Shown: positions 5,112 to 44,899 of the stretch, in pieces
How the letters are laid out: the number at the start of each line of letters is the position of its first letter
Position numbering within the stretch: the first letter of the stretch is position 1
Assembly: GCA_963971535.1 (NCBI GenBank)
Contig: OZ020593.1
Span: 15,040,904-15,104,903 of the forward strand
Length of the DNA: 64,000 bases
Reading direction: 5' to 3'
From: Notolepis coatsorum
Lineage: Eukaryota; Chordata; Actinopteri; Aulopiformes; Paralepididae
The notes under the pieces: model-generated
The model's database searches: none
Told to the model about the DNA's origin: nothing
The model's input: only the letters and a program-made list of their open reading frames with translations
Position numbers and translations under genes: made by a program

Positions 5112-5466
5112 TAGCCTGGTTCTCAGGAGCTTAAATAATATTAAATATATTAAATGTTTTTGTATTCAAGTCGTTGTTTCTTCACAAAGCTACCGGGAGG
5201 CTTTGTGTGCGTCTGGCGAGAGCTTGTATGGAACACGCAAACAATTTAATTGGCACAAGTGCAGCCGCCAGTTCAGTGTCTCTTGTGTTTTGTTATTTTT
5301 TTGCTAGTATAATCATGAAATTGGTTAAAAAGGTCTTACAAAGTCTTCAATTTAACTCGTTGAAAGTGTCTCTTATTATTAAACAGTTGATTGTCTGCGT
5401 TGTAAAACATTTCTCTCCCCTGTTCCTCCTCCTCCTCCTCCTCCTCCTCCTCCCTGTGTTCCTCAG

Positions 5467-8400
5467 GTGGAAACTCCTCCCAGAGCTCCTCCCCCAGCTC
5501 CAGCGCCCCCAACTCCCCCGCCGGCTCCGGCCACATCCGCCCCAGCACCCTCCACGGCCTCGGCCCCAAGCTTACTGGCCAGAGGCTGCGCCAGGGGCGC
5601 CGCAAGTCCGCCGGCAGCATCCCCCTCTCCCCGCTGGTCCGCACGCCCTCGCCCACCCCCCCCCAGCCCACCTCCCCCCAGCGCTCCCCCTCCCCCCTGC
5701 TCAGCTGCGGCCACCCGCTGAGCACCATCTCCAACAAGGCCTCCTCCCAGGCCTTCCCCGCCGGCGGCGGCGCCAAGATGCACTCGCCCCCCACCATCGT
5801 CCGCCACATGGTACGCCCCAAGAGCGCAGAGCCGCCGCGCTCTCCCCTGCTGAAGCGCGTCCAGTCCGAGGAGAAGCTGTCCCCCTCCTACACCGCCTCC
5901 TCCGCGGGGGACAAGAAGCACCTGTGTCCCAGGAAGCATAGCCTGGAGGTGACCCAGGAGGAGGCCCAGCAGGGGGGGGACCGGGACTACCAGGCCCTGC
6001 GCGGTGTGGAGGAGACGCTGTGCTGCGAACCCCTGGCCGTCGTCGCGCGCGTCAGACCCGCCGAGCAGGGCTGCTTGAAGAGGCCGGACAAGGAGAAGCT
6101 GAAGGTGGCGGCGGTGGTGGTCAAGAGGCCGGACTGGTCCGACAGGAGGGAGGCCCTGCAGAAGCAAGATGCCCTGCACGAGTCGTCCGACGCCTCCTCG
6201 TCCTTCCTCCTGTGCGGAGACGACCGAGACAACAAGGCCTTTCTGGGCCGAGGTGGCCCCGCCGGCAGATCCCAGAACAGCCCGGAGCCTTCTGGGACCA
6301 GCTGCTGTGACGGCGGCGAGGGAGGACTCCGGTCACCCCTGTGTTCCACTCAACTCCCCGACTGGCCGCTGTCCAGGCAGGGCGGCAACAAAGAGGGGTT
6401 GAAACCGGACAGGCTGGACTTCAAAGCCGCCAACGTGGAGTTCGGCAGGAAGCGGCAGTCGTTCGAGGAGCGGGAGGAGTGCATGTGCCGGCTGTCTCCC
6501 GGCATCATCCACGAGAGCCTCCACTTTGGCTCCAGTACCACCCGGTCCAAGAGTCTCCAGCTCCAGGACTCCTCCGCCCTGTCTCACGAGCACATGATGA
6601 AGGGAGGCCTCCTCCTGGGCAGCGCGCACTCCAGCCCCGAAGGTCTGCTGTCCCCCAACAAGATGTACTCCGGGAGGGGGGGGGAGAGTGCCGTGGAGAA
6701 GCTCCAGCTCATCTCCGCGGCCGAGAGTCCCAGTCTCAGGAAGACGACCTCGGAGTACAAGCTGGAGGCGCGCCTCGTCTCCTCCCTCAAACCCCTGGAG
6801 GGCACCCTGGACATCGGCCTGCTCTCCGGACCCAGGGTCTCCTCCTCCAAGACGACGGACACATGCGTTTCCTCGGTGGGGCCGCCGGTTTGGCTCCCAC
6901 GGAGTCCCACGGAAAAGCAAACACCCGGCAGCCCCCAGTTCATCAAACCCGCAGAGAAACCCAAGAGCCCCCTGGCACGTTCGCCGAGCCCCGTGCCCGT
7001 GTGGTCTCTGAGCAGCGTGGCGCCCTCCAGAGAGCAGCAGCCGAGTAGTTCTACCGCAGAGTTGTTCAAATGCAGTAGCGGCGGTGAGAGGTCACCGGAT
7101 AGACCCACCGGTCCCTGTGAGCCACAGAGGAGCCCTACTACGTCCAAGGCGGAGGCTTTTACCTTTAGCGGTAAACAGGAGAGCAGGACCGGCGGTGTGA
7201 AGGTCAACAACGCGTCCCTGGTTCACGAACACAGGAGTTCCCGCCACGCCTCCTCCTCCCACTTCTCCTGCGGGAAGACGCCCTCCATACGGGAGGTGAG
7301 CAACGAGGATCAGGAGGACGAGGCGGAGCAGGAGGACTATCCGCCGTCCCCTACACAGCGGAACGCCGCGGATAGTGGCCCCAAAATGGCGGACTTTCTC
7401 ATTTCTCCGACTAAGCCGGAGCCGGACAAAAAGACTGAAGATTCTGCACCGGCGGATAGTGGCCCCAAAATGGCGGACTTTCTCATTTCTCCGACTAAGC
7501 CGGAGCCGGACAAAAAGACTGAAGATTCTGCACCGGCGGATAGTGGCCCCAAAATGGAGTCCCGGACGACCGCAGCTGCCGCTCAGGTACCGCGGCTAAA
7601 ACAAAGCAGTCCGTTTTTTCAGAGCGACGAGAAACCAGCCACTGCAGCACAGAGCTCCGGAGTGACCTCTGTTTCACCAGGGAATGCCCAAAATAACACT
7701 GTATCTGTGCACTACATCCTGGAGGATCCTCAACACCTTTCAAAACTGTCTTTCCACACTTTCCCTTCACATAGCACAGCGCGGGCCTCTGTCCCAGCAT
7801 CGGCCTCTGTCCCAACACCGGCCTCTATCTCTGTAGAGGCGAGGAGGGTAAGCGATCCAAAACCACAGGGACAACAGCAATGCGCGGACAAATCCCCGAC
7901 CGCGGACGAGGAACAACCGAACATTGCCGTCTTCGTCAATGCGGCCGGTCGTGGTACAAGCAGCTTATGCTCCAAGAAGGAAGCCGACATGTGTAACACG
8001 GACACGGTCGGAAGTAGTAGCGTGTCCGGGAGGGCAGAACCGAGCCCAAAGACGCAGCAGGTCTTTGGCTGTTTTTCTAGAGGAACCGCGAACGCGACAG
8101 CCTCGCCATCGACTGACGGCACCACGCAGGTCCCTCCGAGGGCGAATCAACAGGGGCTGGTCGGCAGGGTAGCGAGCGGCGGCGGCGTAGGAACGCAGAG
8201 CAGGGAGGGTTCCACGTCGCCAAAAACAAAGAACAATAGCGGCGTGAAGAACACGGAGCCCAAACAGCCGCCGCTGTCAACAACGTGCCACCCCGAGGTC
8301 GAGAAAGCGGCGCTCAAAGCTCCCGAGGCAGAACGTCTAATCTCCAAAAAGCAGATAGCCGACGCCGGCGCCGTCAAAGAGACTAGCGTTGTTCCCGCGA

Positions 8401-9458
8401 CGAAACAGACGACGCCGCCGGCCTCGGGGGGGAGCAGCGCGAACCCACAAGCCGTCGGGGAGACGAAGAGGTCCGAAGGGAAGGTTCCTCCTGATAGCGT
8501 GACTCTCGTTATTGTCCCCGTCGTCAAAGGAGGTCCGGATTCGAGGCAGAGGGGGGAGATCTCTAAAGACACTCCACTAGTCTCGGCTCCGGCCGTTAAA
8601 GACTCTCAGTTCGCACTAGGCCACGGCTCGGACTCTAAACAGCAGACCCCTCCTCCGGCCCCCGTCGGCGGCAGGCAACGCTCGGACGCGAAACAAAGAG
8701 ACCCCGTGCCCAAAAATATCACTACAATCGCCCCGGTCAATATAATTAGAGAAAACCCGGACTCGAGACAAAGGTCTCCCCCTACCAAAACTGTAACCTC
8801 ATCTTCCGCTACTACGAAAGCCTCTCCGACCCTGAAACCAAGTCTGGTGGAGGCGAGACACAAAGACTCCTCCTCCTCGCCCCGAACCCTCTCTTCTTCG
8901 ACCGCAGCTCCGCTTATTATCAAAGACTCCAGTCCGCCGGACTCCAAATCAAAGGACGCCATCGCTGCGCCCCAGCAGCAGCCCCCCCAGAGGGAGCCTC
9001 TCGCCCGGTCGGACATGCCGCCCCGGCCCTCCCCTCCTTTGCCCCCGGTGCCGCCGTCCGTTCCCCCGGCGGCGAGACGAGAAGCCCATCAGCCGCCTAC
9101 GGGTAGGACGATCGCCGCCGGCGGTGGTGCGGCTCATCAGGAGCCGGCGATCCACGCCGTGTCCAAGGAAAGCCCGAGGTCGGACACTCACAACAAGGGT
9201 CCCGGCGGCGCACCCGACTCCAGAGGCTCGGCCTCCGACAAACAACAGTCGTCGTCGTCCTCCGGCCGCAGGGACCCGGCCGAGAGGAAGCGGAGAGAAG
9301 CGGCGGCTCAAGAGGCAGCGTCCGCGCAGAGGAGCGCGAGGAGAGAGGCGTCCAAAGCCGCCGCGGCTTCTTCTTCCGCGGCGGCAAAGGACGGCGGCGC
9401 GGCAGACAAAGGCAAGCAGCCGAAGGAGTCGCCGCGCAGCTGTGCCAATAAGAGGTAA
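5467..9458 (+). CDS. mast4: mast4 last coding exon, long C-terminal tail
   Basis: After acceptor CCTCAG (5461-5466) the frame reads [43 protein letters not shown], then [37 protein letters not shown] and [12 protein letters not shown]. All are MAST signatures. EYKLEAR...[17 protein letters not shown] and VEQGCLKRP-like (AEQGCLKRP) further on point to MAST4 rather than MAST1-3, as does the long last exon: 1329 residues here, ending at TAA 9456-9458. The tail is disordered: Ser/Pro-rich, with a perfect 28-residue tandem repeat near 7368-7556, recurring DSRQR/DSKQ motifs between about 8530 and 8960, a proline run near 9020-9070 and a basic Ala-rich C-terminus. No catalytic domain is encoded here. 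Codons are strongly GC-rich compared with the flanking DNA. Confidence 0.9.
7368..7556 (+). repeat. In-frame 84-bp tandem repeat inside mast4
   Basis: Two identical 84-bp units (7368-7451 and 7452-7535) and a third partial unit (7536-7556) encode 28-residue repeats beginning [20 protein letters not shown]. The frame is kept. The units look identical at the DNA level, so the duplication is recent or homogenised. Confidence 0.95.
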
Positions 9459-12844: not shown

Positions 12845-13062
12845 TTCTTGAGTATACGCAAAAAGGCATGAGAGGCCGGCCATTAACCGAAAAGTCACTG
12901 GTTAACTGACAGGAGGGCGTATTCCAGCTGTGAGCTGGTGGTATTACATCTACGGTGCCCACCATCCTGCCTAAGTGCCCTTGAGCAAGGCACTGCAGGC
13001 GACCTTTGCTCTCTGACCTCTCTGATGAAATACATATGTGTGGAGAACTGTGTGTATGTACT
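12845..13062. repeat. Possible SINE-like fragment
   Basis: It contains CCTTGAGCAAGGCACTGCAG, a motif common in teleost SINE or LINE tails, just before the minisatellite. A related CTTGCTCAAGGGCACTTCAG piece is at about 56770. No target duplication or complete head was found. Confidence 0.3.
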
Positions 13063-13814
13063 GTAACTAGGAGGGATATGAGGACTAACTAGGAATATAG
13101 GAATATGAGGACTGTGTATGTAACTAGGAGGGATATGAGGACTATGTGTAACTAGGGGGGATATGAGGACTGTGTGTAACTAGGAGGGATATGAGGACTG
13201 TGTGTAACTAGGGGGGATATGAGGACTGTGTGTAACTAGGAGGGATATGAGGACTGTGTGTAACTAGGAGGGATATGAGGACTGTAACTAGGAGGGATAT
13301 GAGGACTGTGTGTAACTAGGAGGGATATGAGGACTGTGTGTAACTAGGAGGGATATGAGGACTGTGTGTAACTAGGAGGGATATGAGGACTGTGTGTAAC
13401 TAGGGGGGATATGAGGACTGTGTGTAACTAGGAGGGATATGAGGACTGTGTGTAACTAGGAGGGATATGAGGACTGTGTGTAACTAGGAGGGATATGAGG
13501 ACTGTGTGTAACTAGGGGGGATATGAGGACTGTGTGTAACTAGGGGGGATATGAGGACTGTGTGTAACTAGGGGGGATATGAGGACTGTGTGTAACTAGG
13601 AGGGATATGAGGACTGTGTGTAACTAGGGGGGATATGAGGACTGTGTGTAACTAGGGGGGATATGAGGACTGTGTGTAACTAGGAGGGATATGAGGACTG
13701 TATGTGTAACTAGGAGGGATATGAGGACTGTGTGTAACTAGGAGGGATATGAGGACTGTGTGTAACTAGGAGGGATATGAGGACTGTGTGTGTAACTAGG
13801 AGGGATATGAGAAC
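13063..13814 (+). repeat. 28-bp minisatellite
   Basis: About 26 copies of a unit reading AACTAGGAGGGATATGAGGA plus CTGTGTGT. The main variant changes AGGAGGG to AGGGGGG, and variant types are interspersed. There are no unique spacers. Confidence 0.95.
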
Positions 13815-14765
13815 TGTACAGATCCAGCTCTTAAAAATCGAACATAACAAAAATAATTGCATAATCCACCGTTGATGGCTTCAGCGCTGTTCCCCTCTCC
13901 TCGAGCGAAAATGCAGCTTTCCCAGACACATTGGGAACTTTTCAAAAGCTCTCCCTTTGCTATTTTATCTGTTAGCTTATCCATCTAGACTCAGACACGA
14001 GGCTCCCACTCTCTGATCTGATGACAGCACTACGTTACGGTGCTAAAAAGAAAGTGAAAGCAGCCATTTGTTTTGGCAAATTCTTCTGCTCTGTGCGACA
14101 ATAAATAAATGAATGATGATGATGTGTTATTTAAAACCAAAACTAAGGCATCAGTATGAGTTTAAGACCTGAACATGGTCATGTTTGTTGAATAATAATT
14201 AAAAAAAATTATATTAAAAAATATATTGTTTTCCCGATCTTCTGAAAATCATGTGATCGGCCGGGACATCCCTAGTTGCTATGGTGACGAAATAGGGGCC
14301 TAGCAGCCAAGGTCAGCCTTCGCTTAGTAGCGCATCTCAGGGAGGAACAAGCCAACATTCCTTTAAGAGATAGCAGGAGACAGTCTTCACGTTCAGTAGA
14401 CAAAAGTGAGAGCCGTTGCCTAAAGGTAATGAAAGCGAGATAACAAATCTATCAGTTAGACAGTGGTAGATCGCTCTAGTGGGACAGAATAGTTTGGAAA
14501 GTGAGCGAGCGAGACGGACCGACATCGAGCAGAGAGCTCCAGCCTCTTCTGAGACGACGACGACTCCAGTACATTTTTGCCCGGATGCATTAATAACGGG
14601 GAACGAGATCAGTGTTTCAGTCAGTCAGTCCGGGGGAGGACAGAATTCCACCGAACGAGGGCCTCAACAATAAATAAATAAAACACAACACAGACTTCAC
14701 AGAAGGGCAGATGAAGGCTGATACCAATCAACAAAAGGCTGATGAACACGACAATCTAACAAGGG
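13815..14765. other. Non-coding segment between two blocks of one minisatellite
   Basis: AT-rich DNA without a convincing gene. It includes GGCCGGGACATCCCTAG near 14260-14276, which resembles a hAT-type end (CATCCCTA), suggesting that part of it is an inserted element that split the array. No matching left end or target duplication was identified. Confidence 0.4.
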
Positions 14766-15245
14766 ATTAGATATGTGTAACTAGGAGGGTTATGAGGACT
14801 TTGTATGTGTAACTAGGAGGGATATGAGGACTGTGTGTATGTGTAACTAGGAGGGATATGAGGACTTTGTATGTATAACTAGAAGAGATATGAGGACTGT
14901 GTGTATGTGTAACTAGGAGGGATATGAGGACTTTGTATGTGTAACTAGGAGGGATATGAGGACTTTGTATGTGTAACTAGGAGGGATATGAGGACTTTGT
15001 ATGTGTAACTAGGAGGGATATGAGGACTTTGTATGTGTAACTAGGAGGGATATGAGGACTTTGTATGTGTAACTAGGAGGGATATGAGGACTTTGTATGT
15101 GTAACTAGGAGGGATATGAGGACTTTGTATGTGTAACTAGGAGGGATATGAGGACTTTGTATGTGTAACTAGAAGGGATATGAGGACTTTGTGCAACTAG
15201 GAGGGATATGACAATTGTGTGTGTGTAATTAGGAGGGATATGCAA
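14766..15245 (+). repeat. 32-bp minisatellite, variant of the 28-bp array
   Basis: About 14 copies of GTAACTAGGAGGGATATGAG plus GACTTTGTATGT. It differs from the first block by CTTTGTATGT in place of CTGTGTGT. It is the same locus, separated by 951 bases. Confidence 0.95.
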
Positions 15246-17339: not shown

Positions 17340-18548
17340 AGTGAAATCAGGGGCGTAACTTGCGGGGGGGTCCCCGGAAAATGTCCCCCGCATGATTTCA
17401 GAATGCAGTATTTGTCCCCCCATGTTTTCCAAACCGCTGCAACTGCGCAGCCTGGCGGCCAGCACTGTGACTCGCTACTACACAGTTCATTGCCAGTTCC
17501 TCAAAGTCATACATAGGGAGCGCTGTCTCGATAATGCAGTGTTATTAAAGCAGCGTGTAGCTGACGCATGAACCAGTTGGAACTGGAAATCCGTTGGTAA
17601 AGAAATAGCGGCCTGGAATCATTTTTGGGACGCTCTCGTCTCAATTCGCAGTAAAGGAATATATCTGCGGTTTCCCTGGCGGATGGCGAACAAGCCAGCC
17701 GATTCTACTATGAGTCATGACATTTGACATAGTCTATGACATCATACTTAACTTAAACTTGAACATGGAGGCAGTTACAAGAACTATCATAATCCGAGCC
17801 CCTGGAGGGTGGTCGAAATCGAATACCTTTTGCGATGTATGCAGGGAACGAATTGAGCTGCCTGTCGCCCATTCTAACGCAGGAGTCCTGGACCCCCGAC
17901 AGGTAAGGTAAGCGATTTTAGATGTATCACTTTAAGTGTGCGGCTGTTGTCCGAATACTAGTGAATATTGAAAAATAAAGGCATGACATTTAGAGACGTC
18001 CCCGTCGTAGCATTCTGGTGCGGGATATGGGTCTCTGTGCGGGGGCGCAACAGCAACAGGTGGGGTAGGCTGGGCAGAGATGTATGCATCAAAACGATTA
18101 CATTGTTTGTCTCGCATACATTCGATTTATAATGCGAGCACCTGCATTACAATCAAATGACTGATCTGTTATGTGTTATGGACCAGAGTCTCGAGAGGCA
18201 CTTTATAATAGAAAAAAGACAGTGCAAACATGTATATGTCGCTTACAGTTTATTATGCCTATGCAGCTCGTTTATTTTGACAGAGTTAAAAAAATATCAC
18301 TAGTATCATTATATTAAATTAGCGGACGTGCAGCTGGACAAGCCCTGGCTCCACGATGACCACTTCTTACAAGAGGCGCCACCGCCTGGGAAAATGCGTA
18401 TTGCACACCTGGTATTAGAAAAAAAAAATGGGAAGGGGGGGCGCCCCCCCCTGCCCCCCCCCCCCCCCCCCCCCTGCGACGTCACTGACCACGCCCCCTA
18501 ATATGTCCCCCCCACCGCTGGGACCAAAGTTCCGCCACTGAGTGAAAT
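17340..18548 (+). mobile_element. 1.19-kb hAT element with 8-bp duplication
   Basis: The element is 17348-18540, with ends CAGGGGCGTAACTT and AAGTTCCGCCACTG (its reverse complement starts CAGTGGCGGAACTT). AGTGAAAT at 17340-17347 and 18541-18548 is a perfect 8-bp duplication. Inside, 17765-17908 encodes MEAVTRTIIIRAPGGWSKSN, then TFCDVCRERIELPV, followed by CAG/GTAAGG. This looks like a first exon with a CxxC zinc-finger start, perhaps BED-like. No transposase core is present, so it is an internally deleted copy. Confidence 0.85.
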
Positions 18549-19132
18549 GCGGGTGGTCATGCCCGCATTGATTGTGCAATAATACAATAATAAAATAGAC
18601 AGAAAAAACAAAAACAGGTAAGACACAAGATGTGCATGATAAAAAATAGACATGCTAAGTTCCTGAGAAACTGGTTCACTATATACAATATACAATTTTA
18701 ACTGTCATTATTATACTTAATGTATCTAAACTATACTATGCAATACCTCATTCCTTTAAAGTGACTTTTCCATTATTTAAAGTGACATTTTGTTTTTTTA
18801 AATAATATATCATGCCAGTTTAGGGTACCTTATGTATACTGTTTACTTTTACTCTTACTCAAGGCGACGTCCACAATTGCCACATCGTTCCTCGCGAAAT
18901 TTTGCAGGATCTTTTTCAGCGAAGGAAAAGCCTTCGTATTGACCACCACCAGCTTGTTGCCACTAAGGTCTGCGTAGATGAGTTTGCCGAGATGGACAAA
19001 CGTGCCGTCAGCGATCGCTGTAATACCGCAGTCGGACAAAACTAGGCTCTGTAGAAGAGGGACATGCGCGAACATCTCTGCGTCGGGATGGGAATCACCC
19101 CGTCCTTGAAGTGGCTTCCGGTCAAGCTCATG

Positions 19133-19457
19133 TACTTGTGGAATAATATATTGATTCCCCAACTCTCATGTAAAGACACCCCCCCTCCCCTCCCCTTTGT
19201 CCCCTATCCTGTGTCCCCCCCCCACCCATTTGACCTATCAAATGGGACCCCCCCCCCCCCCCCCTTTAACTATATAGGGCTTCTCCCAACAGCATTCGGG
19301 GTCTCTACTGGGTCAATTTCAGCTGATCACCTGGGCGAGAACCTCTGCCATTCTCTCTAAATACTAAATGTATCTGTCTGGTTAATAAACCTTGTTATTA
19401 ACTGAACCTCGGTTGACTGAGAACGTTCTTCAGGATATCCACAATATCCCACATACT
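19133..19457 (+). mobile_element. Solo BEL/Pao-type LTR inside cd180
   Basis: The LTR is 19137-19453, starting TGTGGAATAA and ending ATATCCCACA, flanked by TACT at 19133-19136 and 19454-19457. It is a diverged relative of the 356-bp LTRs at 29442 and 36576, sharing TCAGCTGATCACCTGGGCGA and AACCTTGTTATTA. No internal sequence remains, so it is a solo LTR. Without it the cd180 frame runs directly LEY-MSLTGSHF. Confidence 0.85.
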
Positions 19458-20119
19458 CCAGATTCTTCAGACCCGTGAGGAAGTTGCGTGAGTAGGCGGC
19501 GAGGTCACGAAACCGCCACGGGATCATCGTCAGCCACCGCAGGTCGTGCAAGTTCTCGAAAGGTCCTCCCCTCTGTGCATTCGCTATCGTCACGCGTGAC
19601 GTTCGCGTCCTGCAATCGAGACACTTGAGGCTTGGCACACCTTTTGAACGGCAGCGCACTCCACCTCATGTGGCTGTGGCTGCATGAGGTTCAGACTTTG
19701 CAGATGACTCAGGCCCGTCAGCTGGAGCTCACAGCACTGCGGCCCTTTCGCTAACTTACTCCAGCTGCTCCAGCTTGGAGAGAGAGAGCGTTCAGGCAGC
19801 TGTCGTTGAACTGCAACGCGACACGGAAGTTACTCTAGTTCACGGACAGGACGCGTGGTCAGAGAGGGCAGGGCGTTGACGTTTGCGTGGCACAGCTTTT
19901 CAAATCTGTTCTCGTTCATGGACGAGTTTGGACAGAGAGGTCATCCGGCCGACGGGGACGGTGTCCGGAAGAGAGGCCAAGTGAGATCTAGTGGTGAGGT
20001 CAAGCGTCTTCAGGCCAGACGGGCGGTGGAACGGAATGTCCCCAACGTCACCGAAGGGGTGCAACTGGATTCTCAGTTCCTTGACAGTAATGTCACAGAA
20101 GGCTTGTAGAGACTGGGCC

Positions 20120-20625
20120 TTAACACTTTACCCGCCAATCACGTCGTACGACGGGTTTCAAGTTCATGCGAATTCTGCCAATAACGGCGTACGACGTGTT
20201 TCAAGTTCATATTTCATATTTTCGTCATGGTATTCATATTTCACTCGTTTATCGTCGCGGGACTCAATACACACACCGTGGATATGGATCCGTTGCCATA
20301 ACTCAATAATCCACATGATTTGGGCGTATGTTAGTATTATACAAACCGGAACTGGATCGCATCGATCCACATCACATAACTGGGATCTGTTTGCTCCACT
20401 CTCATCGCCCAACGGTACGAGGAGACTGACGTGAGTTTCAGCGTTTTTCTTTATCATTTTCGATACAAACTGCTCTGATCTATATATCACCCATACTACA
20501 TAAATCATTTAACGTCGGTCACGGAATTATAAACACCCTGCAAAGAAGGTGAACATCTCCATAGACTTACAGTACTGGCAGAGAATGGTTTAGGATGATC
20601 AAAGTGGTGGCAGAGAATGTGTTAA
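20120..20625. mobile_element. piggyBac-like MITE inside cd180
   Basis: The element is 20124-20621, flanked by TTAA at 20120-20123 and 20622-20625. The ends match as imperfect inverted repeats: TTAACACTTTACCCGCCA on the left and, in reverse complement, TTAACACATTCTCTGCCA on the right. With one TTAA removed, the cd180 codons on the minus strand read ACC ATT AAG GCC CAG (TIKAQ), joining two CD180-like halves. TTAA targeting is characteristic of piggyBac. The interior is non-coding. Confidence 0.88.
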
Positions 20626-21075
20626 TGGTGGAGGGTTTGCTCTCCTCAAATAGTCCCATCAAGAGGATATTGGTCTGTACCCCCGACAGTCCCGCTATAA
20701 GACCACGGAGACGTCGACTTTCGTCGAAGCAGCCAGTGAAGTCCAGACTGTGGAAGCGGCACGACTCGAACGCCTTCGGTTCGACGTCGACGAGGCCGTT
20801 GCCTCTGAAGCTGACGCTAAGCCCGCTGACGTTCTTCAGCACTAGTGCCACCTCCTCTGCCGATATCAGCCGGAGATCATTGAACTGTAGGTTGAGAGGG
20901 TGGTCATTGTTTTCCAGTTGAACCGCGTCAGACCGCGCAAGGTGTAAATGTCGTTGTCCCCGAGCTTCAGGGTCTCCAGAGACATTCGGGTTCAGGTGAG
21001 GGATGAATTTGAAGTCGTCCATTGACGTCTGAGCCATGCGGAGGTGCTTGAGGGCCAGGGGCCCGGTGAAAAATG

Positions 21076-21420
21076 CTCCACAGCAATAATGTAGACATCA
21101 AATAGACAAAGGCATAAAATGAATGAATTGTCATAAATATAGGCAGGCATAAAATGAGGAGGGAATTGACAGCATAAAAGCAGTGCATAAAGTGACTCCC
21201 ATTTACAGTGCAATAATCATACAAATAGATGTAGAATTAGCTTAAAATAGACAGAATAAAATAGTGCAGTGCAATAAAAATAGCTCATTTGCAGTACAAT
21301 AATCATAGTGTGGATGTAATGAGTCTTCAGTGGCAGGGTGTATTAAAAGGCTAAGTTGGAGGAGGTACGTTTGCTTACTTTGAAGATATTTAGTGATCTA
21401 GCCTCCTTAACCCTGCGACA
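21076..21420. other. Intron-like or inserted AT-rich DNA upstream of cd180 exon 3
   Basis: AT-rich sequence with repeated ACAGTGCAATAATCATA-type motifs resembling LINE 3' ends. It begins exactly where the cd180 exon loses homology, so an insertion or deletion here probably removed the exon's 5' 100 bases. No gene is seen. Confidence 0.4.
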
Positions 21421-21560
21421 ATACACAGACAGAAGGTTAACCCTTTCACTGCCACACAACAGCAGGTTAACCCTTTCACTGCCACACTACAGAAGGTTAA
21501 CCCTTTACTATCACACTACCGATGGTAACCTTCGGTAGTGCGGCAGTGAAAGGGCTAATG
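21421..21560. repeat. 30-bp satellite array with inversion (cd180 intron)
   Basis: Three forward units (GGTTAACCCTTTCACTGCCA with ACACTACAGAA) are followed by an inverted unit (TAACCTTCGGTAGTGCGGCA), switching near 21527. It belongs to the same family as 413-632. Confidence 0.8.
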
Positions 21561-21672
21561 AGAAATAGATGTTTTGTTTTTTAGAACACAAATCGGGCAT
21601 TGACCATATTTACTATCTCTAATGATAGACTCCTCCTAGACTCTTGTTTTTTGTGCATTTTCTTCTACTTAC

Positions 21673-21848
21673 CGTGTTCGATCTAAGGAGACGAGCTGAG
21701 TCAGTCTGCCAAAGGTTGTGTTAACTTGTACAGCACTGCATGGCAGGTGGTTGGAGCTGAAGTCGAGGATCTTAGCCGCGCCGGGGAGATCAACCGCGTC
21801 TGGGACCGTTTGTAAGTCTTGTTCTGAACAATCGTACCCTCCAGCTGT
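21673..21848 (-). pseudogene. cd180: cd180 exon 2
   Basis: Minus-strand exon with acceptor TTTTCCAG (AG at 21850-21849) and donor CACG/GTAAGT (GT at 21672-21671). It encodes GGYDCSEQDLQTVPDAVDLP, AKILDFSSNHLPCSAVQVNT and TFGRLTQLVSLDRTR. This matches the CD180 N-terminal region (YNCENLGLSEIPDTLPNTTE...LTFLDLTRC in human) and ends at the same conserved exon boundary. This exon itself looks intact, but it belongs to a gene broken downstream. The signal-peptide exon was not recognised in 21.9-23.3 kb. Confidence 0.85.
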
Positions 21849-21959: not shown

Positions 21960-23313
21960 AAGAAGGCCAGTTTCCATCCCTAGTCCCGGACAACAAGTAC
22001 ATATAAAGGAACAGGCATTAGACATAAAAGCAGATTCATAGAATAACAGTTCAAGTAACAAGTCAATATATACTATGTAGACATACATTGGTTCATAGAA
22101 TAGAAGGAAGTTATAGTAACAATGTCAATATACCACTGTATGTAGACATACATTGATTCATAGAGTAAAAGGAAATTATACTAACAATGTCAATATACGT
22201 CGTAGACATAACTTGGTTAATAGACCATAGATAAAAATAGAGTTACAGCATCAATGTCGATACATATAAATTATATATACATTAACACACAAGTCAAATA
22301 AATCAGTATCTTACCAGCACAAAGGCAATGAATATACCCTTGATAGAAGGCAAAACAAATACAAATTTTAATTAAAATGATACAAATACAACTCACCATC
22401 TTACAAAGTGTCTTGGAAAGTGGAGCGACCACCACATGCAGAGGAGCAGTGACACATAAAACGCCCACAGCGCACGTTGTGCACCTTGATCCCGTCACGG
22501 TGACTTGAATCTCGAAGCAAAACAAGCTTATTCTGGACTTTTATATGTGAACGTTGAGATGTGCGGAACGTTGAAGTTGGAATTGAAAAACCAGAAGTGA
22601 ACTAATGTCGGCTTCGACCACCACCGCTTCTCTCTGTATAACATCGAGCCTTTGTTGTCGGAACGCTGCGTCTCAGTGTCCGGGTCGGGTTGCTCTCTTG
22701 GTACTTTCTAAGTAAACCTGCCAACACTGACTTCTCAAAATAATGGAACGTTCCCTCTCGTTGTTTCTTATTATGTGTTTTCGAGACCAACAACACGGCG
22801 TACCAGATTCAGTGGTGGAAGAAGTACACACAGTTCCTTCTTTACTTAAGTAAAAGTAGAAATACTCAAGATAAATGAGTACGCTGGTAAAAGTCCTCTG
22901 TTCAAATTCTACTTAAAGGGGAACTATCTTATAAATGGCCTTTTTCAGTGTTTAGCATTGTTTCCTAGCTATGTGGACTTATATTAATATGATCTATGTT
23001 TCTAATTCTCATATTGGCGCATTCTTCCAATTCTCCTCTCACAATATTCACCCTCACTGAACTGAGTCATTTGAAAATGTGCTGATTTGTGATGTCAGAG
23101 AGACTCAGCTGCATGATAATGTGGCAGATGCCACCAGGCCACACAGTGGTTTAGGAGCCCAGCCTCAAAACGTCTCGAGATCTTCAGGTAGAAAAATGCT
23201 GTTTTTGAGGACTTGATTAGAAATACAAAACAATGAATTAAAAAAATAAAAAAATTACAGAGGTGTTCCATAAACTCACAGGAATTGTGTAAAAGTGCCC
23301 AAATAGTGAAAGA
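21960..23313. other. Repeat-rich non-coding stretch
   Basis: Between 22000 and 22270 there are about four degenerate repeats with ACATACATTGGTTCATAGAA-like motifs. At 22813-22920 is half of a MITE (CAGTGGTGGAAGAAGTAC and AAGTAAAAGTAGAAATACTC). No gene is supported, and no cd180 first exon was found. Confidence 0.5.
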
Positions 23314-23987: not shown

Positions 23988-24515
23988 TTCTGTATCGTTA
24001 GTGGCTTAGCTTGGCATCACACTGCACAAGGGAGGCCAAGCGGAGCCACTTGGCTGACAAATACACCCCGCTGACAGCCCCCCAAAACCATCAGAACAGG
24101 GAGGGCCGAGCCCCCCCGACCCCCCCTAATGGAGGGTATCCCCCCTATTAGAGGTTTCACGGGAAGGCGACGGACCCGACCGTGCGAAGAGGCACTCAAG
24201 CAACTTAACGCACAGGGTGAGCAGACCGTGGCTTGACCCCACGACTACACACACGCACAACCCGCATGCCACCCGGGAACGAACGGAGGAACAACCTCGT
24301 TACTGCCCCCAGAATCACGGGGTCAAGGGCAAACCCAACCCCGTGGCAAGGCCGTAGCAGCGGAGCGCGAAGGAAGACCCAGACCCACCAAAAGGACTGG
24401 ACTCCCTGGAATGGGGGCCCGGAGAAGTCCATGATGCCAGCATCAAGACCCCACCAGGTGGGCACGTAGTGCCCCGCCCCCCACATCGCCAGCGTATTCG
24501 GACAAAGGCCCCCCA

Positions 24516-24627
24516 GTTACTGCACCCGGTAATCCCAGGCGGTATCCCAAGTACTAACCAGGCCAGAACCTGCTTAGCTTCCGAGATCGGACGAGATCGG
24601 GCGTGTTCAGGTCGGTATGGCCGTAAA
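24516..24627 (-). pseudogene. 5S rRNA-like sequence 1
   Basis: Read on the minus strand: TTACGGCCATACCGACCTGA, CGCCCGATCTCGTCCGATCT, CGGAAGCTAAGCAGGTTCTG and CCTGGTTAGTACTTGGGA, ending in CGCCTGGGATTACCGGGTGC. This follows vertebrate 5S rRNA along its whole length but lacks a few bases around the C-box (TGGGATACCGCC for TGGATGGGAGACCGCC). A retained internal Pol III promoter is possible. Function as rRNA is unlikely. Confidence 0.85.
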
Positions 24628-25286
24628 CCGAGCGGGCCCCGTCCCCCCAATAGTACACCGCCTGGCACACTGACCCTGCAGAACAGGCAGTCAGCATGGC
24701 CGTAAGCACACAAAAAAGGTTAACCAACGGAAGCAGGCAGCGCACCGGGGAAAAACCAGGCAACAGGCTGTTAACCCCAGCCTGGAGACTGCGGACGAGA
24801 CAGGCGCCAGAGGGGACAGCTGAACACAGCCGCCCCGGCGGAAGGAGCGTAAGCTGGCGGTGTTGCATGACCAAGCCTCCATTTAACAACCCCCACCCAG
24901 AGGGGTCGAGGCAGAGAAGGCTGACACGATTGGCAGACGTCATGAACGTGCAGGGGCACCCTCAAACGGTGAACCCGGGAGTTGACACTGCTCCAACACA
25001 CCAGGGAATCAACCACCTCGGTGTTACCCAATGCGGTGGTTGTTCCTATAACCCCTCAAGAAAAAACTCAAACACACCTGCGGGTATACACCGGCTATAC
25101 CGCAGTACAAGCGTTTCAGTTTCCAAAAAAGGGTTAACCCAGGCCTACGGGTCGCAAACATCACTTCGGACCGGGCCTGGCGGTACGGGAAGCACAGGGT
25201 CACCAGAGGAGGTCAAAAAACCACCCCCACAGGCCCCTCTTCGCCATGCGTGAGAGAGGAGCGAAAAATAATGGAGAACCAGCCCC

Positions 25287-25408
25287 TAAGCACACCGTAC
25301 CTGGTATTCCCCGGCGGTCTCCCAACCAAGTACTAACCAGGACCAACCTGTGTAGCGGCCGAGATCCGACGAGATCGAGCGCGGTACAGAATGGCATGGC
25401 TGTAAGCC
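25287..25408 (-). pseudogene. 5S rRNA-like sequence 2
   Basis: Minus strand: GGCTTACAGCCATGCCATTC, then GATCTCGTCGGATCTCGGCC, CCTGGTTAGTACTTGG and TTGGGAGACCGCCGGGGAAT, ending ACCAGGTACGGTGTGC. It is full length with an intact C-box-like segment but with many changes in helices I and III. Same orientation as copy 1 and 771 bases from it, as if a short piece of tandem 5S DNA had been captured. Confidence 0.85.
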
Positions 25409-29157: not shown

Positions 29158-29441
29158 AGTGTTAAGAGTCAGATAGTCCTAACAGTGTTTATTATCAAGA
29201 GTCAGATAGTCCTAACAGTGTTTATTATTAAGAGTCAGATAGTCCTAACAGTGTTTATTATCAAGAGTCAGATAGTCCTAACAGTGTTTACTATTAAGAG
29301 TCAGATAGTCCTAACAGTGTTTATTATCAAGAGTCAGATAGTCCTAACAGTGTTTACTATTAAGAGTCAGATAGTCCTAACAGTGTTTACTATTAAGAGT
29401 CAGATAGTCCTAACAGTGTTTATTATCAAGAGTCAGATAGT
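29158..29441 (+). repeat. 33-bp minisatellite, left part
   Basis: About 8 copies of GAGTCAGATAGTCCTAACAG plus TGTTTATTATCAA. The array continues at 36933-37382 and 38504-38650 and is split by a BEL element and a piggyBac-like element. Because 33 is a multiple of 3 it gives a spurious repetitive open frame. Confidence 0.95.
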
Positions 29442-29797
29442 TGTGGGATATTTGTGGATATCCTGATGAAGAATGTGCTCAGTCAACCGAGGATTGGATA
29501 ATAACAAGGTTTATTAACCAAACAGATAGAATACATAGAGAGAATGGCTGAGGCTCTCGCCCCAGGTGATCAGCTGAAATTACCCAGGTAAGAAGCCTGG
29601 ATAGATCTCAAGAGGAGATCTATATAGTTAACAGGAGGGGGTGTGGTCCCATTTGATAGGTCAGATGGGGGGGGGGGTACAGGTAATGGGGACACAGGGG
29701 AGGGGAGTGTCTTATTCCACAGAGGGGGGGGGGGGGCACAGGTAAAGGGAACACAGGGGAGGGGGATATATTTACATGAGGACATAATTATACCACA
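29442..29797 (-). repeat. BEL/Pao LTR (3' LTR in element sense)
   Basis: Starts TGTGGGATATTTGTGGATAT and ends ATTATACCACA as read on the plus strand. Direct copy of 36576-36932 and relative of the solo LTR in cd180. Confidence 0.88.
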
Positions 29798-30699
29798 ATA
29801 CTCACTTTTCTTTCTTATAATGTGGGTGAGATTAATGTATAATATACCAGGATTGTTTGGAACAGGTAAAAGTGGGGATAATAGTTTAAAATAGAATTAT
29901 TTACATACATGATTAATAGAATTATTTACATACATGATTCATGACATGATCGACTGGACTGCGGTCTGTGTTATTTTGATATCAGAGATGTGGGAATAGA
30001 TATCACCCTTTTCTTTTATTAATCGCTCAAAATACCTATATCAATGAGTGGTCCTCATCTCTGATATCAAACAACAATTAACATAATCATTTGAAGCTAT
30101 CGCTGTGCAAATATCTTGGCATACCTTCAGTCGTTCATGTCGTGACTCTGGGGAGCTAATGTGATCGTTGTGCATACAGGCATCGTAATAAACCAATTAA
30201 ATACATGCACTGTCTGTGTGGTCAGATTGCACAGGGTGAAAAAACAAAATTGTGTGCATAATTAGGCTAATGTGTACAAAAACATTTTAACAACCGTTAA
30301 CCTGGTGGTTAATAAAACTAACATGATTGATTATGGGAAACTGTTCAAAAATATATATATATATTTTTGCACGTTTTATGATGATTCTTGATGAAATTAC
30401 TTAGGATCCAGTTGTATTTACCCTGAGTTTGAGTGTCACTTTCATCTGTGATTGCCTCAGTTTTGTTGGTCTTTACTTAGAATCAGGCAATTTTCTCCAT
30501 TTCTTCTCTATAAATGAGGAGATAAAACGTCTTATGCATCGCTTCTGTATGTAATTCTAGTGCATATACTATCAATGGTTCACCATATAGGTGCAAAACA
30601 ACGTTACATGTCCTCTTCTATGAGAGAATAAAACAACTGATTCTTTCTTGTCTGACAATACAATTTTGTAACCTAAGTAATTCAAATGTGATGTAATGT

Positions 30700-31345
30700 G
30701 ATCATGTGGTCACTTCTTCCTTCAGCAATACATTTTAGCTCATTATTACTAACCATTGTTAATGCTTTCTCATTGATTTCTTTTCATCACATCCCTAGTT
30801 CATCGTTTTGCAGATACATACAATTGTGTGAAAAGTTTCCTTCTTGTGAAGGTGTTAATCTGAATGATGTTGCGTCGTTGTTGACAAGGTGTTCTCTGTC
30901 GGTCGTGTGGCAGGGCCAAACAGTAACACATAAAAATTAAATAAATACATACAATAGACATTACCTTAGTGGCTAATGTGTCAAAATAAAATTGAAAACC
31001 GTTAACCTAGTGGTTAATATAAAAGGTGATTATGATAATCGTTATGCATTGTTCTGTGGTGCATACTATCAATGTTGAACACAAACTTGGTGTCTTGGAA
31101 CAATCCAACTGGTTCTGCCCTGTTTAACAATACCATTTTGGAAAGGGACTCTGTGATCATTTCTCATTGTCATTATAAAATTGGTTAATGCAATCTTACT
31201 GATTGTATTTCATCATATTCCTAGTCAATAATTTTCCAGATACATATGAACTCTGTGAAACAGTTCTTGTTTGTGAATCTGACAGTTGCTGTGAAGTGTT
31301 GATCATCTGTTCTCGGTCTGTCGTGTGGCAGGGCCAATACATACA
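30700..31345. repeat. Diverged direct duplication inside the BEL element
   Basis: The block ending GTCGTGTGGCAGGGCC at about 30915 is repeated, diverged, ending at about 31335, with shared CATCACATCCCTAGT / CATCATATTCCTAGT and CAGATACATA motifs. A tandem segmental duplication about 420 bp apart. Confidence 0.55.
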
Positions 31346-31949
31346 TAACAATGTGGACAATGTGTGTTCAGAAGTATCTTGTTCTACAGGTCTCTGATGA
31401 TGTCTCTTCTTGACGATGCAGTCGGGAACATTCACTGGTCGTCGTTCATTCAGAGGGGGCCTACAGGAGGTCGCCGTCCGCTCCCTGTGTACCTTGTCAA
31501 GGGTCACCGGTAGCAGTCAACTATAGTGGTCTTTTCCTGCAGCCTATGTTGTTCTCCATCACCACCACACATCCGCCACTGTGCTCACGCTTGGCTCCCA
31601 TCAGGCCCAGAGACATGGTGGTCAGGGCGTTTTTGAATGTGTTGTGCTGGTTTCGCTGTCCTCTCCTCGTCATTGCGGTACCACTTGATGGAGGGCGAGG
31701 GCCCGCCGGTGTAGTGGCTAGTCAGTAGGACGCTCTTTTTCACACGGATGACAATCTTGTCATGGGAATCCACCTTGATGGTCGGGGACTTGGTTCCCAT
31801 CTGCAGGTGATGGGTTTGGTCTGCAGTGCCGGGGTGGAGGCTGTCAAAAGGTTGATCTCCTCTTCGTCAGTGTCTCCTTGGTCAGTCTCCTTCGTGGTCC
31901 CCTGCTCCACTTTCTTGGGGATGTCTGTGGGCTGGGTTGGATGGTTCTC

Positions 31950-32717
31950 TCACGGTTGTTGTCGTCGCCTCTGGTTGTCAATTTTCTTTATGTGTCCCGC
32001 TGTGATTAGCTTGTTAATCTCAGCGCGGTACACAGTCTCTTGAGCGGGGTCTCTGGCTAGGCGCCGCTCTGTGTTCAATAGATACCGCTCCGTCGCTTCT
32101 TTTGGGGCGTGGAAGGTGGGCATACCCTCTCGCCTCAAGAGTGGAGTTGCGTATCTCATCACTCCATTGACTTTGACTCTCTTTGTCCCTTGCTCGAGGA
32201 GTGCTATGGCGTAAATGTCTTCCTTGGAACGAATGTCTTTCTTTTCGTTCTTAAAGGGCATTGTCTCTAGTGTCCATAGCCTCTCGACATGCTGTAGGAG
32301 GGTGGTGTCTTCTTCTGTCACTCTGGAGTGGAGGCAGCTAGTGGCTGCTGTTCGGTTAAGAGACTTAGCGAGAGGGCCTTGTAATGTCCATCCTAGGCGG
32401 GTCTCGACTGCTGCAGGACAGCCTCTGGGCCCTGTGTGGACCCGGTCTATCGGGACTATGAGGTCTGCATGGTCGGAGCCTATCAGCAGGGTCGGGGTGG
32501 CACCGTCTATGAGCGGGATAGGTAGTTGACGCAGGTGCACATATTTATCCATCAGCTTGGCGATGGGGTAGGTGTACTGCGACAGGCCTATTTCTTGGCT
32601 GGTGAAAGCATTAGTAATCCTATACCGTCTCTCTGGCTGCCCGCTTGCTGCGATAGTGAAGGAGACATTCTCGCCCTTTATCGTCTTTAGATCTCTTCTT
32701 ATTGTCCGAATCGTCAT
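31950..32717 (-). pseudogene. Pao-type pol fragment of the BEL element
   Basis: A 255-residue open stretch reads PIPLIDGATPTLLIGSDHAD, LIVPIDRVHTGPRGCPAAVE and TRLGWTLQGPLAKS. This is the conserved region between the protease and reverse transcriptase of BEL/Pao polyproteins. It is a fossil fragment, not a complete enzyme. Confidence 0.8.
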
Positions 32718-33349
32718 TGGTTGTGTCCGCAGCTTCGTGGTTCAGGTCGCGCATCGTCTCACTCGTCCTGTCCTCTCACCAATTCGTGATCTGAGGGTGA
32801 TAAACACTGCCTTAGAAAACTCCTCACATAAATGATTCAACGCCTTTCTGCTAAAGTGGAAAATCATTTTGGGATTAATTCATTTCATTTTAAATACAAT
32901 CACTTAATTGACAATAGGAAATGCAAGCCAATTGCATTAGCAGTGATTCCTTACGTCAAGAAGGTCACATTCACTACAATTTTATCAGATCTTGTATCTA
33001 ACTAGATCTTCCAGCATTACACTTTAAATAAAATTTGTAAATGAATGGCCAAAGTCTTGAATCAGATAAAATAGCTCCTTGTCTTCATATTCTGATGGTC
33101 TTAAATTGAAGTTGATCTTACCTCAGGCCGCGTACGATGGTGTGCTTCTTCAAGATACTTACCTCGCCATGACTTCTCGGTTGTTCTTCACATCTCAGTA
33201 TGGCTCATCATAGCATAGCATGGGGAAAAAACATAAAATCTAGGTAGCCAGTTAATTTTTGCATGAAAAACAATCATTTGTTTTGTCATCTACGTTTTAA
33301 CTAACCTTACTGTCATGCATTTGTCCTAATAAACTAATCTACACTGTAG

Positions 33350-33460
33350 CACTCAACACTTTGATGACCATTGTTACTCAGCTGATAGAGGTGTGCCTTG
33401 CCTGATGTCCTGTCGTACAGAACCTGTGAGTCGCTTTGGATAAAAGTGTCAGCTAAATGA
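33350..33460 (+). mobile_element. SINE-type tail fragment
   Basis: GTGAGTCGCTTTGGATAAAA plus GTGTCAGCTAAATG is the widespread tail of fish tRNA-derived SINEs. A second copy is at about 59270-59430 (AAGTCGCTTTGGATAAAAGC). It lies within the BEL element. Confidence 0.6.
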
Positions 33461-34564
33461 TCAATGTTGTTGATATCTTGTACATTTAGATAATTGTGCT
33501 GCAATTTTGGTGGTTGATAATTTTGCAATCATGGAAAGTATTAGTTGTTAAAAGAATAGTCTAAGGAAAGTCATGCATGTTATTGGTTATAAACAGAGAA
33601 TAGAAGGAGGGGATTGTAAGTAGTTGTTTTCATCATTAATCTTTCATCTCGGGCACTTCTCTAATTCATGTGTCTTTTGAAAAGAGATGATGAAAACGAC
33701 TGGTTAGTTATTGTTAGTATGGGAGTTAGGTAGATTTTCATAACTGCAAATTCATCACCGGTGTCTAATTCATGTTAATTAAGTGGTTCTCTGTTGCCAT
33801 CCACCGCTAGGTGAGTTCATCAAGTCTGTGGTCACGAGTGCAGGCATTTGCATTGCTTTGTCTCCCAAGTGCCCACTCTGAAGAAATTTACATGTGGGTG
33901 TTTTGGATGTAGATTTGTTCCAAATGGTCAATCGATTGTCTCTCAGCTCTGCACTGTCTCTCGGTTGACATGCAAATTGTTGGATTTTCTGTCTTTTGTG
34001 ATACAATTTGGGTGTAGTCATTCACTGTTTTGCATCTCGCCTCAGAGCCAGATCTGTAAATACAAACACATGTTAATTTTCCACTCTTTTCTAAAACCTG
34101 GGTTTGACTGTCTGTGTGCTCAACAAACATTAGTTAGATCTCATCCATCCCGTTCTTGGATGTAATGATAGTGTTATCATTTATCAATCATATCGCATAT
34201 GTACACAAGCATCATATGAATTTTGAACCACACATTTTGAATCATGTTTAAAAATGTCTTACAATGGAAAGGGCTAGTTATCTTTCATTGGTTCTTTAGA
34301 TAAACACATTAACTCAAGTGAATATAACCTAAACATCTTACTTTTAAACATAATCTATGTTGTTTGTGCCCAAGTTTTTTTAACATTGAAAGCTTATAAA
34401 GTCTAATCTAACGCTGTTTATGTGGACTACAAGGTTGAAGGTACGCCCACAGATGTATTATAATTCTGAAACAGACATTGTAATTAGCTTTATGTGACTT
34501 ATAATGTGTAAATTAAAGCACATAAACACTCAAGTGATCTGAGATAGTTGTAATTTGCTTTAAC

Positions 34565-34905
34565 TGATAGTTGTGTATATGTACAGTTTCTACGTCAAAT
34601 GACTCCCTTTTCTTGACTCCTTTTGTATCACAAAAAGTACTGAATTTGCAAATCTGGTATGTCATAAATGTACAGATGTAGCAGTACTGACTATCTGTCT
34701 GTCATGTATGTCATAATATGTTCTGATAAATTGAAAATGGGGGACCCTGATGTAAACAAATCTGGTATTGAAAATGGGGGACCCTGATGTAAACAAGACT
34801 AAAGTCTCTCTCTGGTCTGCATCCCCTTAACAATTGTGTATTGAGCTGTGCTGTATTGTACCCATTCTGCAATCTGTTAATAAAGTTTTCAATCAATCAA
34901 TGCAT
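34565..34905 (+). mobile_element. LINE 3'-end fragment inside the BEL element
   Basis: Plus-strand 3' end of the same family as 40514-42248, ending CTGTTAATAAAGTTTTCAAT and a CAATCAATCAATG tail. It contains a short internal duplication of the AATGGGGGACCCTGATGTAA segment. Confidence 0.75.
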
Positions 34906-36575
34906 CTATATTTATGATTGTCATACTCACCGGGGACAGCTGTTGTGTTGGGTTGGATCCGTTACGTGTCGTCAGCAACCCGCATCTCGCCACCTCAACT
35001 CAACATTTTCCAATAGCAGCGCGCACATACATATACAAATAAAACATATACTACACGTGGATTTCACGCACCCTTGGCCTTGGGTACATTACACTTTACG
35101 TTCGCTTATGGATAGTTTAATATAAAATAATAACTTCACGGCGCGCATAGCGTCACGTCATTGCTCCATGCGACGTTCGTGTGTTCTCATTCGCCTCGGA
35201 AATAACGCTTTGTAATTCATACAGTATTTTTCCCACGAGCTCTCAATAGCCTGGAATTCCTATACCAGCGTTTTGTTACCGAATGAACGCGCCTGTGCAT
35301 ATGTGAAACGTAAACAAACTGAAACGATAAAACTATACTTCCCCAAATGGCCGTTCCCGCGGGCCGGTGTTCTGCGGAATCCGGAAATTACTATCCTAGT
35401 TTGTTCCCGTGAACTGCACTTCAATGTTATTCTTTGTATAACGGTAACTCGTTTCTCAATGCTCGTCGCGCTATCCGCAGCCGGTTCTTGACTCAATAAA
35501 GCAACGCGACGGGTCCTATAATACTTGTGCACATACAAACGAGACTTAAACAGACAAACAAACAATAATACATATAAGTTAACGTGTGTGTATATCTGAC
35601 TGTATTGGATCGCTGTACGTTTAGTCGTCCAACATCTGTTGCGACAAGGCATTTATACCCTTGATATATAACTACACATCGTTATTAAAATCATAACGAC
35701 CGAACCTGACTTCGAAATTTACCAGCGATATATTAGATTATATATACCTTTTAATCATACTCTCGGTCTCTTTTACTCGCGACTAATGTCCTGTTTAATG
35801 TACTTTCCGCGACTGATGTCCCGTTTAATGTACATTTACGTACTCCCGGGACATCGCGTAATCATGTACTAACTAGGACATCGCGTGATCATCTTCCCGC
35901 TATCTGTATTGATCAATTGGTTAATTTAATCCAAAATACATCGTTTTCAGGAATGAGATTGTGGGCTTAGTTTGAGGTTGAAACAATGAATATTATGACG
36001 CTACTCTGGTAATTTCTAATTATGATTCCATCAGCTTCTCGGTCCTAACTTCCCGCCTCTTTGCAAAGGAATCACAGAACGTTTTTAACAGAGTAGCGTT
36101 TTCCAAGGATATCACATCATAATAAGCTCACGTATCTATTTTGTTGCCTATATTTTTAGTCTGCATCAGCTAGACTAGGGGTAGCAATCCAACAACCTGT
36201 GTGTGCCTTAGCTTTCGGTCGGCTCCGACTCGACCAGGAATAGCACCTCAACCTTTGTGCCTAAACTTTTGGGAATAGCACTATAACCCATCCTCTCAGA
36301 ACCGCCTGATAAAGGACCCAGGTGCACGCGCGCCCTGGTAACGATTCTCAATACAGATCAGATATATTAATGCACATTATTCTACTCAGCCATGATCTCA
36401 ATATTGGACAACATTCTGTAATATTCACCTGGCACAGAGAAAAGCGGGAAGATTTTAATTCCTTCCATACATTTTTGGTCGACCATCCTATTATACTCAC
36501 TTTTCTCTGTATAGTTGAATGATACAGCACGCCGGGAGGACGCAAAAAGTCCGTCACAAGTTCGTAGACGCCAAT

Positions 36576-36932
36576 TGTGGGATATTTGTGGATATCCTGA
36601 TGAAGAATGTGCTCAGTCAACCGAGGATTGGATAATAACAAGGTTTATTAACCAAACAGATAGAATACATAGAGAGAATGGCTGAGGCTCTCGCCCCAGG
36701 TGATCAGCTGAAATTACCCAGGTAAGAAGCCTGGATAGATCTCAAGAGGAGATCTATATAGTTAACAGGAGGGGGTGTGGTCCCATTTGATAGGTCAGAT
36801 GGGGGGGGGGGTACAGGTAATGGGGACACAGGGGAGGGGAGTGTCTTATTCCACAGAGGGGGGGGGGGGGGCACAGGTAAAGGGAACACAGGGGAGGGGG
36901 ATATATTTACATGAGGACATAATTATACCACA
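36576..36932 (-). repeat. BEL/Pao LTR (5' LTR in element sense)
   Basis: Direct copy of 29442-29797. In element sense the LTR is followed by TTGGCGTCTACGAACTTG, a possible primer-binding region. Confidence 0.88.
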
Positions 36933-37382
36933 TAGTCCTAACAGTGTTTACTATTAAGAGCCAGATAGTCCTAACAGTGTTTATTATTAAGTCAGATAGT
37001 CCTAACAGTGTTTATTATCAAGAGTCATATAGTCCTAACAGTGTTTATTATCAAGAGTCAGATAGTCCTAACAGTGTTTATTATTAAGAGTCAGATAGTC
37101 CTAACAGTGTTTATTATTAAGAGTCAGACAGTCCTAACAGTGTTTATTATTAAGAGCCAGATAGTCCTAACAGTGTTTATTATTAAGAGTCAGACAGTCC
37201 TAACAGTGTTTATTATTAAGAGTCAGATAGTCCTAACAATGTTTATTATCAAAAGTCAGATAGTCCTAACAGTGTTTACTATTAAGAGTCAGATAGTCCT
37301 AACAGTGTTTATTATTAAGTCAGATAGTCCTAACAGTGTTTACTATTAAGAGTCAGATAGTCCTAACAGTGTTTACTATTAA
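36933..37382 (+). repeat. 33-bp minisatellite, middle part
   Basis: About 13-14 units of the same array as 29158-29441, resuming exactly at the TAGT duplication of the BEL element and ending at the TTAA before the next insertion. Some units are 30 bp (TTATTAAGTCAG). Confidence 0.95.
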
Positions 37383-42248: not shown

Positions 42249-42839
42249 TCTGTCCAGGTGTGTCTTGTTAGTAATTAGTCTCCCTATATATTCTGTCTGT
42301 TCCTGTCACTCCCCTGTCGGTTCGTTTACCTATCCTGTCACATTCATTGTAATCTGCCAGCTTATGCTGAGGTACTGATTATTGTTTTGTTGTTGTAGTT
42401 AAAGCCTTGTGAAGAACAAGTAAAGCCTTTTTTCAACTACACCCCGTTGTGTCCTGCCTGTCTCTCTCTCTTTCGTTCCTGTTATTGCTATTGGGTCCAC
42501 ACCAACAACGAATCCTTACAGAACGAACCGACCAGAATTGGACCCAGCAAGCAGGACGAGGGAGACCTGGCACAGCCTCTACCACCAGCCTCACTGCCAG
42601 CACGACCGCCGCGGCCAGCACCGCCTCCTCCGCGGACATGGAGCTCCTACACACAACTACACCCCGTTGTGTCCTGCCTGTCTCTCTCTCTCTCTCTCGT
42701 TCCTGTTATTGCTAACAAGTATAAATTGAGTATAGGCAACAGAGTTCAAAGTTCAAATTGGAGAGAGGGGGTGAAATAGAAGGAATAAACGGTGTCGTTT
42801 GGGTGTCGAGGACGACTGGGGCGACCGTCATCATGGCAA

Positions 42840-44883: not shown

Positions 44884-44899
44884 TTACGATCCAACCAAA

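Follow-up and report, generated by a model that had tools for sequence, protein, structure and literature searches.

A 64-kb stretch of DNA, analysed at its full length and referred to here as the window, carries on its minus strand the decayed pieces of a cd180 gene, still in gene order, between 18.85 and 22.45 kb. CD180 (RP105) is an immune-cell receptor that resembles TLR4. A preliminary description, made from the letters of the sequence, had reported CD180-like LRR fragments on this strand, and PDB, tblastn and frameshift-aware matches all bear that reading out. It had also placed the relic correctly, but the span it gave, 18850..21848, is too narrow, as a candidate exon 1 remnant stretches the relic to about 22450. 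An open frame on the opposite strand at 5.4-9.5 kb, tail-to-tail with the relic, presumably belongs to MAST4, and it serves below as both a synteny anchor and a quality control.

The layout of the gene can be followed exon by exon. The candidate exon 1 remnant (22397..22450, minus strand) reads ...VVVAPLSKTLCKM and ends at a GTGAGT donor (22396-22391) whose phase 0 fits exon 2. Comparison by eye only suggests a resemblance to the N-terminus of Centroberyx CD180, MVTPLSKGVCKL, and no in-frame ATG was found upstream of the last codon of this candidate in the stretch read. Exon 2 (21673..21848, minus strand) is open and retains an AG acceptor (21850-21849) and a GTAAGT donor. Intron 2 and repeat-rich sequence then occupy 21077..21672, where neither the acceptor of exon 3 nor the ~35 codons expected to follow it can be recognised. 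A 30-bp repeat of the GTTAACCCTTTCACTGCCACACTACAGAAG type lies inside this intron (21423-21560) and recurs, in both orientations, at 412-632, 57768-58532 and 59450-59540. The rest of exon 3 survives on the minus strand as a first part (20626..21076) with 2 to 4 frameshifts, a middle part (19458..20119) with 3 to 8 frameshifts and the one stop, and a last part (18850..19132) with one frameshift, similarity ending near 18855-18866.

We put four pieces of the relic individually to solved structures, and CD180 ranked first for three of them: exon 2 (21673-21848; E 4.3e-05), 20622-21070 (E 1.3e-09) and 19903-20121 (E 1.9e-06). CD180 stands 13 to 20 bits over the best TLR4 chain in these three. The fourth piece, 18833-19093, is the exception to this closeness to CD180 over TLR4 and other LRR proteins: many other LRR proteins outrank CD180 there, whose best chain comes 18th (E 1e-07). 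In tblastn the same piece is 79% identical to a fish CD180, P0001, over 73 codons, and exon 2 matches residues 13-68 of P0002 at 68%. Pfam assigned no family to four of five relic pieces, LRR_8 rising above the cut-off in the last; 19453-19665, which was put to Pfam only, gave no family. A database search with the relic returned fish CD180 at 65% (P0001), 54% (Centroberyx) and 51% (Polymixia) identity. The best eight of its 11 matches span 84-99% of the relic (five named CD180, one hypothetical, two without a name), and no match among the 11 carries the name TLR4.

After frame correction the identities are 74% (P0001), 62% (Centroberyx) and 59% (Polymixia) over 426-428 aligned residues, with 323 of 427 positions identical in the frameshift-aware alignment to P0001. 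That alignment scores 1465 with the inserts left out and falls to 1165 with them kept in. Since ten shuffled versions of P0001 score 43-59, a chance origin of the CD180 similarity is excluded. An earlier alignment to human CD180 scored 483 against 32-49 for six shuffles and contained 6 frameshifts and one stop.

Two mobile elements interrupt exon 3, both with the boundaries that the preliminary description had given. The first is a MITE of 498 bp (20124..20621), flanked by TTAA at 20120..20123 and 20622..20625; the second is a solo LTR of 317 bp (19137..19453, plus strand, antisense to cd180), flanked by TACT at 19133..19136 and 19454..19457. Once each insert and one copy of its duplication are removed, host codons rejoin as claimed (...STIKAQSLQ... 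and ...LEYMSLTGSHF...), the joined flanks reading ...EESKPSTIKAQSLQAF... and ...LKNLEYMSLTGSHFKDGVI... In related fishes, intact CD180 proteins read straight through both sites. P0001 reads ...EESQTSTIKAQSLQAM... and ...LQNLEYMSLTGSYFKDGVI... without intervening residues, and Centroberyx (...EQSQPSTIKAQSLQAL... and ...LQNLEHMSLSGSYFKDGVI...) and Polymixia (...EDSQSNTIEAQSIQAL... and ...LHSLEYMSLSHSYFKDGVI...) are likewise uninterrupted. Because intact relatives read across, the claim of base-exact insertion is right and uninterrupted sites exist at the protein level. Gaps within 5 residues of the MITE join do occur in 50 of 52 alignment rows; these are columns a few residues leftward that were opened by other rows, and the relic, P0001, P0002 and P0003 share an identical gap pattern near the join. 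The cd180 relic with its two inserts is confirmed as a real observation.

The MITE has imperfect 13-bp terminal inverted repeats that match at 9 of 13 positions, a level reached in 0.18% of 10,000 random draws. We take a TTAA target duplication together with such ends to mark the piggyBac kind, and the element would fit a piggyBac-type MITE. At 498 bp it is presumably too short for a transposase gene, and the 64-kb window contains no second copy. The other insert has the features of a solo LTR, namely a single LTR with TGTGG...CCCACA ends and a short TACT duplication, without an internal region, and an AATAAA is visible by eye on its plus strand. An element at 29.4-36.9 kb has two LTRs, and each of them shares 79% identity with it across 276 aligned columns. 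Because the MITE is single in the window and the LTR relatives are just 79% alike, neither insert can be given an age.

The window holds further repeats and elements. The LTR element just mentioned (29442-36933) has two LTRs that are 99.7% alike over 358 bases, and 33-bp tandem arrays adjoin it on either side (29164-29441 and 36932-37382); a Pfam search at E 0.1 assigned no family to its longest inner frame (31950-32741, minus strand). An LTR-retrotransposon-like element at 44377-49680, presumably of Gypsy type, contains a 1158-residue open frame with reverse transcriptase, RNase H, integrase and chromodomain matches, flanked by two tandem-repeat arrays with a common 60-bp consensus. A 431-residue open reverse-transcriptase frame (40972-42267, minus strand; RVT_1 E 3.1e-28) we take to be LINE-like. 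Two 5S rRNA-like copies on the minus strand (24514-24628 and 25289-25407; 81 and 60.8 bits) lie ~780 bases apart, both diverged from the consensus.

Decay of the cd180 relic extends beyond the insertions, as the preliminary description had held. Outside the inserts, ~1.3 kb of host codons contain 6 to 13 frameshifts and one stop. The frameshift count, taken on one assembly with the inserts left out, depends on the penalty: alignment to P0001 gave 13, 12, 12, 8 and 6 at penalties of 10, 15, 20, 30 and 40, with one stop every time. The same method applied to the MAST4 frame against P0126 found neither a frameshift nor a stop over 5808-9453 (3.6 kb; 787 of 1066 positions identical), and because the neighbouring MAST4 is free of frameshifts, poor base calling is argued against. 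Seven disruption sites in the relic that were checked by eye lie outside long homopolymers. We also compared branch lengths, which were 0.28 for the relic and 0.045 for its sister in a CD180 tree, and 0.34 for the window and 0.083 for its sister in a MAST4 tree; the relic branch is not clearly faster than that of the same line's intact MAST4.

In addition to what had been described before, the gene has suffered two larger losses, one where exon 3 begins and the other at the 3' end. A tblastn search of 11 proteins over the 64-kb window at E<0.01 found no match for Centroberyx CD180 residues ~69-104 (the exon 3 start, ~35 codons) or for anything after ~residue 551 of 647 (the last ~95 codons). 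Among the fish CD180 rows, Esox alone extends past 21070, and slightly so (to 21094). A targeted, lax search at E up to 10, using three exon 3 starts and four fish tails, found nothing for the starts at 21077-21672, their best match (E 0.084) being elsewhere and on the plus strand. For the tails, Polymixia gave a borderline match at 17839-17648 (E 0.011), correct in order and strand, and the three other tails match there too (E 2.1-2.6). We read this as a chance match, with three stops and another frame that looks gag-like by eye, although a far-decayed remnant of the cd180 tail is possible. A retroelement gag-like fragment, again recognized by eye, occupies ~17650-18050 on the minus strand, immediately past the missing 3' end of cd180.

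Judged by eye, the lost 3' part encodes in relatives an LRRCT-like end together with the membrane anchor and tail. The relic does not have the composition of an intact LRR ectodomain followed by LRRCT, a single membrane span and a short tail without TIR, and the window offers no convincing LRRCT or anchor. Because this 3' part is missing, no membrane-anchored receptor could come from the locus, even without the inserts and frameshifts.

The neighbourhood of the relic speaks to where the gene came from. The last-exon frame of MAST4 (5406..9458, plus strand) is open and convergent with cd180; its best named match, from Polymixia, is labelled kinase 4 and many others are labelled kinase 3 or unnumbered, so that the name MAST4 is one we assume, guided by these labels. 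Between MAST4 and the relic lie two large arrays, at 13062-13817 and 14772-15242, whose units of 28 and 32 bp have TGTAACTAGGAGGGATATGAGGACT in common. CD180 is linked to MAST4 in three other fishes as it is here: the two rows fall on contigs that are both 38460444 long in Polymixia lowei and both 32982632 long in Triplophysa tibetana, and the locus tags of the two genes are adjacent (00014730 and 00014740) in Albula goreensis. The human CD180-MAST4 order is, we assume, the same. Because the MAST4 neighbour is shared with relatives, this is likely the ancestral locus, and gene order and exon structure together suggest that we are most likely looking at the ancestral place of cd180, with the gene unprocessed.

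Both genes place the window similarly among fishes. In the MAST4 tree (28 rows, midpoint-drawn) the window pairs with P0126 (100/99), and the two lie outside a 19-row group with Lampris, Polymixia, Gadus, Myripristis and percomorphs (99/97). In the CD180 tree (31 rows), which took in CD180 rows only, the relic pairs with P0001 (100/100), outside Centroberyx and Polymixia (99/96). These positions would fit a neoteleost line that branches before the spiny-rayed fishes, such as the lanternfishes or lizardfishes. P0001 is open for 531 residues, starting at an internal methionine and running to the protein end, the N-terminal part being absent from the record. Because this nearest sampled relative is mostly open, the frameshifts of the relic fall on the branch of the window itself.

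Taking together the observed identity, boundaries, frameshifts and neighbour of the relic, we consider it very probable that this is the teleost's ancestral cd180, now a unitary-type pseudogene with inserts, frameshifts and losses. An ancestral cd180 would have kept its introns and its tail-to-tail place beside MAST4. A piggyBac-type MITE would have entered exon 3 with a clean TTAA duplication, and an LTR retrotransposon would have entered the same exon with a clean TACT duplication, later to be cut down to a solo LTR. The gene would also have accumulated the 6-13 small frameshifts, the one stop and the two larger losses. By this account cd180 would be dead in the living fish, with no other copy. 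The preliminary description is supported in part, for the relic, the two insertions exact to the base and the decay outside them; the loss in this lineage that it had inferred may have happened.

Other accounts of the same locus fare less well. A duplicate cd180 may have died here while a working copy persists elsewhere in the genome; we regard this as unlikely, since the relic sits at the MAST4-linked, likely ancestral place, and no second copy turned up within 64 kb at E<0.01. The gene might instead be functional, its frameshifts and gaps being assembly errors and its inserts spliced out. In favour of this, both exon 2 and the splice sites flanking it are intact, but the frame next door came through the same method without a frameshift in 3.6 kb, the seven sites inspected by eye are not in long homopolymers, and a convincing LRRCT or membrane anchor is missing from the window, which makes a working gene highly improbable. 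Least credible of all, to the point of being nearly negligible, is descent from another LRR receptor such as TLR4. The one piece in four that matches other LRR proteins better in PDB would favour such an origin, but it is outweighed by the three pieces that put CD180 well ahead of TLR4 and by the near full-length matches of the relic search, from which TLR4 is absent.

We also asked how widely CD180 is retained. Among the 120 of 148 matches listed from a CD180 search (7984 candidates scored; each row a cluster under one name), 49 rows score at least 443 bits, of which 42 are named and 7 unnamed; 26 are ray-finned fishes. Centroberyx and Polymixia are the only spiny-rayed fishes among those rows, and no percomorph CD180 is found among the matches listed that score at least 443 bits; the matches listed from a second search likewise include none. 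The search overlooks some rows, as even P0008, used as its query, is missing among the matches listed. Percomorph TLR rows in the same search and percomorph MAST4 rows show that the database includes percomorphs. The percomorph absence is thus a hint. On this basis it is conceivable, if somewhat short of an even bet, that cd180 was lost repeatedly and independently in neoteleosts, in the window's line, which seems to branch before the spiny-rayed fishes and has an open, partial gene in its closest sampled relative, and separately in percomorphs. If true, CD180 would be dispensable once TLR4 signalling is gone, and this locus would be one such loss with datable insertions.

Passages in three papers hold that most fishes lack TLR4 (PMC4850435, PMC12469797, PMC9533005), and one of these adds MD2 and CD14 to the absences. 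In zebrafish larvae, knockdown of Cd180 and Ly86 leads to higher susceptibility to a fish virus, according to part of another (PMC8138431). No paper evidently on cd180 loss in fishes was among the literature matches listed. With the relic it becomes testable whether the loss of CD180 comes after that of TLR4, and a securely placed, broken cd180 whose two inserts have uninterrupted sites in relatives would provide markers for the timing of receptor loss, so that this case could be dated.

Compared with known systems, the locus is most like the unitary pseudogenes, which a section of PMC2864566 describes as unprocessed pseudogenes without functioning counterparts. The relic is unprocessed (exon 2 with its splice sites), lies at what is likely the ancestral locus and is disabled by frameshifts; like unitary pseudogenes, it keeps introns and a neighbour while carrying frameshifts, a stop and lost pieces. 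It shares exon order and peptide with the intact CD180 of fishes (P0001, Centroberyx gerrardi, Polymixia lowei and Esox lucius), but the frames of those proteins are open and, by eye, finish with LRRCT-like and membrane-spanning parts, whereas the relic is broken. It further resembles the absence of TLR4 and its partners from most teleosts, as set out in passages of PMC4850435, PMC12469797 and PMC9533005, in that a receptor of the LPS-sensing branch would have been lost in fishes; those passages are silent on CD180, and cd180 has 0 occurrences in PMC12469797 and PMC9533005. The pseudogene is real and well preserved, and of an ordinary, already known kind.
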